Assembly (NCBI GenBank): GCA_025362315.1
Contig: JANYGP010000071.1
Location: forward strand, 1-64,000
Length of the DNA stretch: 64,000 nucleotides
Direction: 5' to 3'
Origin: Polaromonas sp.
Lineage (GTDB): Bacteria; Pseudomonadota; Gammaproteobacteria; Burkholderiales; Burkholderiaceae_C
Part shown: piece after piece, positions 16,340 through 18,787 of the stretch
How the letters are laid out: every line of letters begins with the position of its first letter
Numbering within the stretch: the stretch's first letter is position 1
The notes under the pieces: generated by a model
What the model was told of the DNA's origin: nothing
What the model saw: only the letters and a program-made list of their open reading frames with translations
Database searches by the model: none
Position numbers and translations under genes: made by a program

Positions 16340-17590
16340 ATGGCCAACATGAACAGTTCAAACACCCTGCCCCAGCCCAGCGTAGTGCCTTTGCGTGTGG
16401 ACGCGCAGGTGATTGGCCTGGTGGGTATGGCGCACTTGATCAGCCACTTCAGCCAGCTGCTGCTGGCGCCGCTGTTTCCGTGGCTGAAAGCAGAGTTCAA
16501 TGTCAGCTACGCACAGCTCGGGTTTTTGATGACGGTGTTCTTTGTGGTGTCGTGTGCGGTGCAGGCGGCATCGGGCTTTGTGGTCGACAAGCTGGGACCG
16601 CGCCCCGTGTTGTTTGTGGGCTTGGGCCTGATTGGTGTTGCTGCGTTTGGTTACGCCATGAGCACCAGTTACTGGATGCTGGCCGGCGTTGCTGTCATAG
16701 GCGGCGTGGGCAATGGCGTGTTTCATCCGGTCAACTACACGCTGCTGAACCGCAAAGTCAGCAGCAAGCGCCTGGGCCACGCATACAGCGTGCATGGCAT
16801 CACCGGCAGCTTGGGCTGGGCGCTGGCACCTGCCATGCTGGTGCCACTGGCCCTTGGCTTTTCATGGCGGGTGGCGCTGATGGCTGCTGGCACTTTGGCC
16901 TTTGTGGTGCTGGCTGTGGTGCTGCTCAACCGTGACAAGCTGGCGCTCCCAGTGGCCGCAGCCAATAACAACAACAACAACAAAGCTGTGCAAGACAGCA
17001 GCCTGGGCTTTCTAAAAATCCCGGCGGTGTGGATGTGCTTTACCTTTTTCTTTTGGTATGCGGCTGTGCTCAGCGTCATCCAGACCTTTGCACCCGAGGC
17101 AGCGCGCCAGCTGCATGACGTGCCGCTCAGTCTGGTGGCTATCTGCCTGAGTGTTTACATGCTGGGCAGTGCCAGCGGCATGGTGCTGGGGGGCTTTTTG
17201 GCAGCGGACTCCACGCGCTGCGAGCGCATTGTGTGTATGAGTTTTGCAGTCGCAGCGCTGATGGCGCTGCTGCTGGCTTTGGGCCAGTACCCGGCCTGGC
17301 TGGTGCCGGTTTTGTTTGGCGTGATGGGCATTGCATCAGGTGTGGCCGGGCCGTCGCGTGACCTGCTGGTCAAACAGTCCACCCCGGACAACGCCACCGG
17401 GCGCGTCTACGGCGTGGTGTACGCTGGGCTGGACATTGGCCAGGCTGTGACGCCCCTGGTGTTTGGCTTGCTGATGGATCATGGCCAGTACATGCAAGTG
17501 CTGCTGGGCTTGGTGGTGCTGCAGTGCGTGCTGGTGTTCAGCGCACTGAATGTTCGCAAAGTCAGGCGGGTGGCGCTGGTGGCTGGGTGA
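16340..17590 (+). CDS. MFS transporter
   Basis: 12-TM MFS sequence with a central poly-Asn loop. Confidence 0.88.
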   Translation: MANMNSSNTLPQPSVVPLRVDAQVIGLVGMAHLISHFSQLLLAPLFPWLKAEFNVSYAQLGFLMTVFFVVSCAVQAASGFVVDKLGPRPVLFVGLGLIGVAAFGYAMSTSYWMLAGVAVIGGVGNGVFHPVNYTLLNRKVSSKRLGHAYSVHGITGSLGWALAPAMLVPLALGFSWRVALMAAGTLAFVVLAVVLLNRDKLALPVAAANNNNNNKAVQDSSLGFLKIPAVWMCFTFFFWYAAVLSVIQTFAPEAARQLHDVPLSLVAICLSVYMLGSASGMVLGGFLAADSTRCERIVCMSFAVAALMALLLALGQYPAWLVPVLFGVMGIASGVAGPSRDLLVKQSTPDNATGRVYGVVYAGLDIGQAVTPLVFGLLMDHGQYMQVLLGLVVLQCVLVFSALNVRKVRRVALVAG

Positions 17591-17739
17591 TCTGGCCCGC
17601 CGCAACAGGCCCTCTGACTCGCCTGTTGGTTGGATTTCCGTGTTTTGGCAATCTGGTGGAGAACTGAAGTTGCTCTGCGGTATCAAACCAAGGGTTTGTA
17701 CTTATTAACCATGTTTGCAAGTCATCATTGACCGGTTTT

Positions 17740-17766
17740 TTGGCACTCTGCCACACTGAGTGCTAA
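17740..17766 (+). promoter_or_regulatory. CIRCE (HrcA) operator upstream of rpoH
   Basis: ttggcactc-N9-gagtgctaa; 17/18 match to TTAGCACTC-N9-GAGTGCTAA; overlaps a plausible ttggca-N18-taatat promoter. Confidence 0.85.
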
Positions 17767-17803
17767 TATTTCATTTGCAAACTGTTTTTAAAGGAGTTTT
17801 GCT

Positions 17804-18787
17804 GTGTCTGTTGCTGCTTTCCCTGTTCCTTTTCCTACTCCAGTTTCTTCCCCACTTCCTTCACCTGGCTTGCTGGCAGCCTCTGGCGTTGTCAACGCCA
17901 ACCCATGGTCCCTGCTGCCACCACTGGGTAACCTGGATGCCTACATTACGGCGGTCAATCGCCTGCCCATGCTCACGTTGGAGCAGGAGCAAGGCTTTGC
18001 CCGCCAACTTCGTGAAAGCAACGACATGGCCTCGGCTGAAAAACTGGTGCTGTCGCATTTGCGGGTGGTGGTGTCCACGTCACGCAAATACTTGGGCTAC
18101 GGCCTGCCGCATGGCGACTTGATTCAAGAGGGCAATATTGGCCTGATGAAAGCTGTCAAACGTTTTGACCCGGACCAAGGCGTCAGGCTGGTCAGCTACG
18201 CGCTGCACTGGATCAAGGCCGAGATGCATGAATATATTTTGAAAAACTGGCGCATGGTGAAAGTAGCTACCACCAAAGCACAGCGCAAACTGTTTTTTAA
18301 CCTGCGCTCCATGAAGCAGGGCTTCAAGGACGATGCTGATGTGGCCACCCACCGCGACACCCTGAGCGACGATCAGATCAGCCACATGGCCAAAACGCTG
18401 AACGTCAAGCGGGAAGAAGTCATTGAGATGGAGCAGCGCATGTCAGGCGGTGATGTGCTGCTGGACCCGAGCCCGGGCGACGATGGCGACGATGCTTTTG
18501 GGCCGATTGCGTATCTGGCCGATGCAACACAGGAGCCAGCGGCCTTGCTAGAAGCGCAAACCCAGGACTACCTGGCCACCGACGGCATCGCACTGGCATT
18601 GCAGGGGCTGGACGACCGCTCACGCAAGATTGTGGAAGAGCGCTGGTTAAAAGTGAACGACGACGGTTCAGGCGGCATGACGCTGCATGACCTGGCAGCT
18701 ATTTATGGTGTCAGCGCCGAGCGGATTCGCCAGATTGAGGTGGCAGCCATGAAGAAGATGAAAAAGGTGCTTGCAGAATATGCTTGA
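17804..18787 (+). CDS. rpoH: RNA polymerase sigma-32 factor
   Basis: SRKYLGYGLPHGDLIQEGNIGLMKAVKRFDPDQGVRLVSYALHWIKAEMHEYIL; C-terminal HTH. Confidence 0.95.
   Translation: MSVAAFPVPFPTPVSSPLPSPGLLAASGVVNANPWSLLPPLGNLDAYITAVNRLPMLTLEQEQGFARQLRESNDMASAEKLVLSHLRVVVSTSRKYLGYGLPHGDLIQEGNIGLMKAVKRFDPDQGVRLVSYALHWIKAEMHEYILKNWRMVKVATTKAQRKLFFNLRSMKQGFKDDADVATHRDTLSDDQISHMAKTLNVKREEVIEMEQRMSGGDVLLDPSPGDDGDDAFGPIAYLADATQEPAALLEAQTQDYLATDGIALALQGLDDRSRKIVEERWLKVNDDGSGGMTLHDLAAIYGVSAERIRQIEVAAMKKMKKVLAEYA

Follow-up and report, generated by a model that had tools for sequence, protein, structure and literature searches.

The window analysed here, a stretch of 64 kb from a Polaromonas draft genome (G000; 3.48 Mb in 122 contigs, 88.5% complete), carries the sigma-32 gene rpoH. 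The encoded protein reached 380.6 bits against TIGR02392 (cut-off 323.1) and is thus RpoH. Directly in front of this gene, where an earlier note on this DNA had placed it, lies a 27-bp palindrome matching CIRCE, the operator sequence recognized by HrcA, a heat-shock repressor. The features of the locus are compiled in Table 1. Upstream of rpoH we found a gene for an MFS transporter (16340-17590), in which a run of AAC and AAT codons encodes six asparagines (16965-16990). Between both genes there is a weak terminator-like hairpin of 6 pairs (17684-17698), with 0.4 of this kind expected by chance.

Table 1. Features found or predicted at the rpoH locus (positions refer to the 64-kb window).
Feature	Position	Strand	Details
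Decayed sigma-E promoter	17728-17755	+	TTGACCG 17728-17734, CCACA 17751-17755; homologous to GGAACYY-N16-TCTAA in relatives
CIRCE, predicted HrcA operator	17740-17766	+	Arms 17740-17748 and 17758-17766; spacer 17749-17757
Sigma-70-like promoter within CIRCE (predicted)	17740-17769	+	-35 TTGGCA 17740-17745; extended -10 TGC-TAATAT 17761-17769
Shine-Dalgarno AAGGAG of rpoH	17791-17796	+	Sequence; AAGGAG conserved in same-genus relatives
rpoH, sigma-32	17804-18787	+	327 aa, GTG start; TIGR02392 and PRK06596 above cut-off

The operator reads TTGGCACTC-TGCCACACT-GAGTGCTAA and agrees with the consensus TTAGCACTC-N9-GAGTGCTAA at 17 of 18 positions, the one mismatch being a G in place of A at position 3. 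No other CIRCE match with up to 3 mismatches occurs in the window, and shuffling with preserved dinucleotides gave an expectation of 0.01 matches of such quality per 64 kb. The match claimed in the earlier note was thereby confirmed. The range given there, 17740-17769, is right as well and comprises the CIRCE and, beyond it, three more bases that complete the TAATAT hexamer of an overlapping promoter. The right edge of the CIRCE is located about 37-38 nt 5' of the rpoH start codon.

This predicted promoter, TTGGCA-N18-TAATAT with a TG extension and the hexamer TAATAT at 17764-17769, matches the sigma-70 consensus at 9 of 12 positions. TTGGCA constitutes the beginning of the left CIRCE arm, and the right arm GAGTGCTAA provides the TGC and the TAA of the extended -10. 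No other sigma-70-type match was obtained in a scan of 17580-17830, where 0.2 were expected. Furthermore, TAA(T/C)AT was present at the right CIRCE arm in 70 of 79 Comamonadaceae-type rpoH loci. The right arm of groESL CIRCEs is followed by TAACAA and similar sequences, conservation of TAANAT being seen at rpoH and not at groESL. These data fit the overlap of promoter and operator that had been proposed. Transcription of rpoH would start at about 17776, leaving a short leader of about 28 nt.

The earlier note had made its proposal dependent on the presence of HrcA in this genome. We found hrcA as an intact single-copy gene (PF01628, 226 bits; G000:C90:85429-86082) encoding 339 aa (L003 1444-2463), on the same contig but outside the window, 67 kb beyond rpoH. 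It adjoins, in divergent orientation, a gene resembling NAD kinase genes (judged by eye) and is not part of any dnaK operon. The whole draft genome contains exactly two CIRCEs with up to 3 mismatches, at rpoH and groESL, and zero sites matching a reversed control pattern. The second CIRCE is located upstream of groES-groEL on another contig (L001) and has identical arms including the TTGG variant. Just 5' of it there is a sigma-32-like CTTGAAA box together with CACTAT, which is also the pattern of the family. Neither dnaK nor hrcA of the draft genome possesses a CIRCE. The statement that CIRCE classically controls groESL and dnaK consequently applies here to groESL and not to dnaK, although a further CIRCE, e.g. 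at dnaK, could be missing due to the draft state of the genome. Since hrcA itself lacks a CIRCE, autoregulation of HrcA via this element seems not to occur.

Conservation of the operator in front of rpoH, suggested as a check in the earlier note, was observed throughout the relatives. CIRCEs with up to 2 mismatches were present upstream of rpoH in all 80 Comamonadaceae-type loci returned for the RpoH protein (Polaromonas, Variovorax, Rhodoferax, Ramlibacter, Acidovorax, Limnohabitans, Diaphorobacter and others). A CIRCE was also found in 22 of 22 genomes of the same genus with an rpoH locus returned. Of 250 genomes of the order, 222 contain CIRCE, mostly with exactly two sites, and 220 contain hrcA. 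We compared the rpoH upstream regions of 90 genomes of the order and found the CIRCE in 83 of 83 genomes with hrcA and in none of the 7 without it. In that scan, 82 of the 83 were detected at up to 4 mismatches; the rpoH locus of the 83rd, G173, is shortened, and its CIRCE is visible in the Comamonadaceae-type locus set. Of 30 rpoH loci from other families of the class, 26 possess a CIRCE. With only 0.01 matches expected per window, no reversed-pattern site in the genome and conservation in well over 150 loci, which by itself already refutes it, a chance match to the consensus has a negligible probability and was rejected. We regard the 27-bp palindrome as a true CIRCE lying exactly on the rpoH promoter, and binding of HrcA to it is predicted.

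The joint occurrence of gene and operator extends to their loss. Among 228 good-quality genomes, 201 contain both hrcA and CIRCE, 23 neither, 2 only hrcA and 2 only CIRCE (Fisher p=4e-27, a value from a comparison of both listings by hand that overstates the significance since relatives are not independent). The exceptions are G030, G085, G168 and G199; two have hrcA but no CIRCE (the HrcA match of G085 being very weak) and two have a CIRCE-like site but no hrcA. Losses were observed in the families f4, f20, f25, f32, f35, f41, f42, f45 and f51. Since several of these families have members keeping both, several independent joint losses are likely. This pattern agrees with the reported absence of HrcA from Neisseria and its presence in Chromobacterium (PMC3135505).

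In most relatives, a sigma-E-type promoter, GGAACTT-N16-TCNNA, is superimposed on the rpoH CIRCE. In the 79 Comamonadaceae-type rpoH loci, the CIRCE arms are near-invariant, GGAAC(C/T)(C/T) begins at -12 relative to the CIRCE, and the spacer contains TCTAA, with 16 nt between the two elements. By its sequence, GGAAC(C/T)(C/T)-N16-TCTAA is a known form of the RpoE/sigma-E promoter, and RpoE is encoded in the genome studied here (TIGR02939 above cut-off). Most other families have GGAACTT at -16, 4 nt further upstream, the -10 then consisting of the TC that ends the left CIRCE arm and three spacer bases (TCTAA, TCTCA, TCAAA, TCTTA). In the genomes of f32 and f4 examined, the sigma-E promoter lies wholly upstream of the CIRCE, at -28 to -31. 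The sigma-E -35 thus occurs in registers of -17 to -14, -12, or -28 to -31 relative to the CIRCE (L294-L323, L033-L062, L176-L235), as if the relative placement of promoter and operator had shifted from lineage to lineage. Two genomes without CIRCE, G496 (locus L302) and G493 (locus L304), contain a strong GGAACTT-N16-TCNNA promoter some 115 nt upstream of where the RpoH match begins, an arrangement like that of E. coli rpoH P3.

The motif GAAC was present in the 30 nt before the rpoH CIRCE in 64 of 79 Comamonadaceae-type loci (0.108 expected per sequence, p=1e-47), in 51 of 82 across the order (p=1e-32) and in 23 of 26 in other orders (p=2e-22), all p values assuming independent sequences, which relatives are not. 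Before groESL CIRCEs, used as a control, it was found in 2 of 30 cases (0.099 expected). A stricter test was applied to those spacer bases that the -35 and the arms leave free to vary. Where GAAC (or GAAAC) stands at -16 to -14, 64 of 71 genomes have A in spacer column 11, compared to 7 of 30 genomes without it. In the Comamonadaceae-type loci, TCNNA occupies spacer columns 11-15 in 58 of the 61 cases that have GAAC and in 0 of the 16 that lack it. Both halves of the sigma-E promoter therefore appear and vanish together, as expected of a real promoter. At the groESL CIRCEs, GAAC is not in excess, TCNNA is missing and TAANAT does not follow, indicating that these are not general properties of CIRCE.

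In the window itself, alignment to the relatives revealed TTGACCG-N16-CCACA at the homologous place, both sigma-E elements being lost, and no GGAACTT-N15-17-TCNNA was found at rpoH. An alternative sigma-E match at 17660 was rejected as no better than chance (P about 0.1). G323, the relative with the closest RpoH (89% identical), is also degenerate, with GGAGCTA and ACTAA. Within the genus, only 8 of 23 have GAAC at the standard place and all have kept the CIRCE. The persistence of CIRCE where the underlying sigma-E promoter decayed, in the window and in much of the genus, argues for selection on the operator itself, apart from the sigma-E promoter. The window would then represent a branch which retained the operator and the sigma-70-like promoter and dropped the sigma-E half.

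These observations also bear on the idea that the palindrome is kept merely as the promoter's own -35 and -10 bases, with HrcA inactive at this site. Both sigma-70-like hexamers do sit in the arms, and the sigma-E -10 of the relatives uses arm bases, too. But a promoter needs no 9-9-9 palindrome fitting the HrcA operator, and CTC and GAG, the parts of the arms that the hexamers do not cover, are just as invariant. Moreover, the arms persist where the sigma-E promoter decayed and vanish along with hrcA though rpoH remains. Pure promoter conservation is highly improbable in the light of the palindrome, the invariance of CTC and GAG and the parallel loss of arms and hrcA, and was rejected.

With the operator on the rpoH promoter and a second one at groESL, HrcA very probably represses rpoH and would hence sit above the sigma-32 regulon. 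HrcA repression feeding into this regulon had been the interpretation of the earlier note, and all computational evidence is in its favour. In the circuit we infer, HrcA bound to the CIRCE would exclude RNA polymerase, as at groESL, and keep rpoH low in unstressed cells. Heat or folding stress would inactivate HrcA, either because GroEL is titrated away or because HrcA itself is heat-sensitive, and rpoH and groESL would be derepressed together. The resulting sigma-32 would drive its regulon including groESL, via the sigma-32-like promoter beside the groESL CIRCE. GroEL, known to restore HrcA activity in Bacillus subtilis, would do so here as well and close the loop, and chaperones would restrain sigma-32 as they do in E. 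coli. A report on Campylobacter describes HrcA in its title as sensing heat itself (PMC8533110), which may apply here, too. Binding of HrcA at the rpoH site could be weak, or important under some conditions only.

It might also be that HrcA binds with little effect on sigma-32, translation and stability mainly setting the amount of RpoH and the CIRCE just trimming basal transcription. We consider this rather unlikely. A precedent is E. coli, in which heat regulates sigma-32 largely after transcription, and the short leader predicted for rpoH would fit as well. In addition, having the CIRCE consensus was no guarantee that groESL operons of Mesorhizobium loti were strongly induced by heat (PMC3989490). 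Against this, nearly all genomes with hrcA have the operator at rpoH, which implies a lasting advantage. Furthermore, rpoH, hrcA, groES, groEL and dnaK rise together in Variovorax WDL1 growing in a consortium (PMC5911999), which fits transcriptional control without singling out HrcA. Repression of rpoH by HrcA thus remains our preferred reading for this locus.

For the Burkholderiales and many other Gammaproteobacteria (in the GTDB sense), we are somewhat inclined to regard the overlay at rpoH as a composite element, in which bases shared by sigma-E promoter and operator would create an AND logic of sigma-E and HrcA at the top of the heat-shock regulon. With the final TC of the left CIRCE arm starting the sigma-E -10, HrcA would gate the envelope-stress input into rpoH, too. 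Envelope stress would then raise sigma-32 only after cytoplasmic folding stress has freed HrcA. This layer would have been lost in the genome studied here. Where hrcA is missing and rpoH has just the sigma-E promoter, as in E. coli, the composite element would be present in reduced form.

HrcA repression and sigma-32 represent the two classical bacterial heat-shock strategies, which are usually described side by side and meet at groESL. Here, an HrcA site lies on sigma-32's own gene, in essentially every hrcA-bearing genome of the order examined, and a hierarchy with HrcA above sigma-32 becomes directly testable. If the sigma-E overlay in the relatives holds true, rpoH would integrate cytoplasmic and envelope stress. 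The textbook circuit of E. coli, which lacks HrcA (control row of the hrcA profile search), would guide poorly for these bacteria.

A CIRCE at rpoH has been predicted before, at -51 from the start codon in Geobacter sulfurreducens (Rodionov et al., PMC545781, Table 8). Our search of the open-access literature yielded no further text on such a site, HrcA not being treated in PMC5343134. The survey by Permina and Gelfand (doi 10.1159/000077248), cited in PMC545781 for beta-, gamma- and epsilon-proteobacteria, may contain sites of this kind at rpoH. The same search gave no description of a sigma-E promoter overlapping a CIRCE, and it is this composite of the relatives that we put forward as novel.

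G. sulfurreducens shares with the locus described here the predicted HrcA operator directly before rpoH and the CIRCE at groESL. In that organism, hrcA-grpE-dnaK-dnaJ has a CIRCE as well, whereas here hrcA stands alone and CIRCEs were found only at groESL and rpoH. The Geobacter site was predicted in one of the genomes studied (PMC545781), whereas the link described here spans a whole order. With E. coli rpoH P3 and the rpoH (fam) promoter of Bordetella bronchiseptica, which is transcribed by SigE in vitro (PMC3490749, containing 0 occurrences of HrcA and CIRCE), the relatives have GGAACTT-N16-TCNNA before rpoH in common. In contrast to these, the sigma-E promoter of the relatives shares bases with a CIRCE, and that of the window is decayed. 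The classical HrcA/CIRCE systems at groESL and dnaK operons have the same operator sequence, spacing and repressor family, but here the target is the gene of the alternative heat-shock sigma factor and the promoter hexamers lie inside the operator. This differs also from groESL in these bacteria, where a sigma-32-like promoter is located just before the CIRCE.
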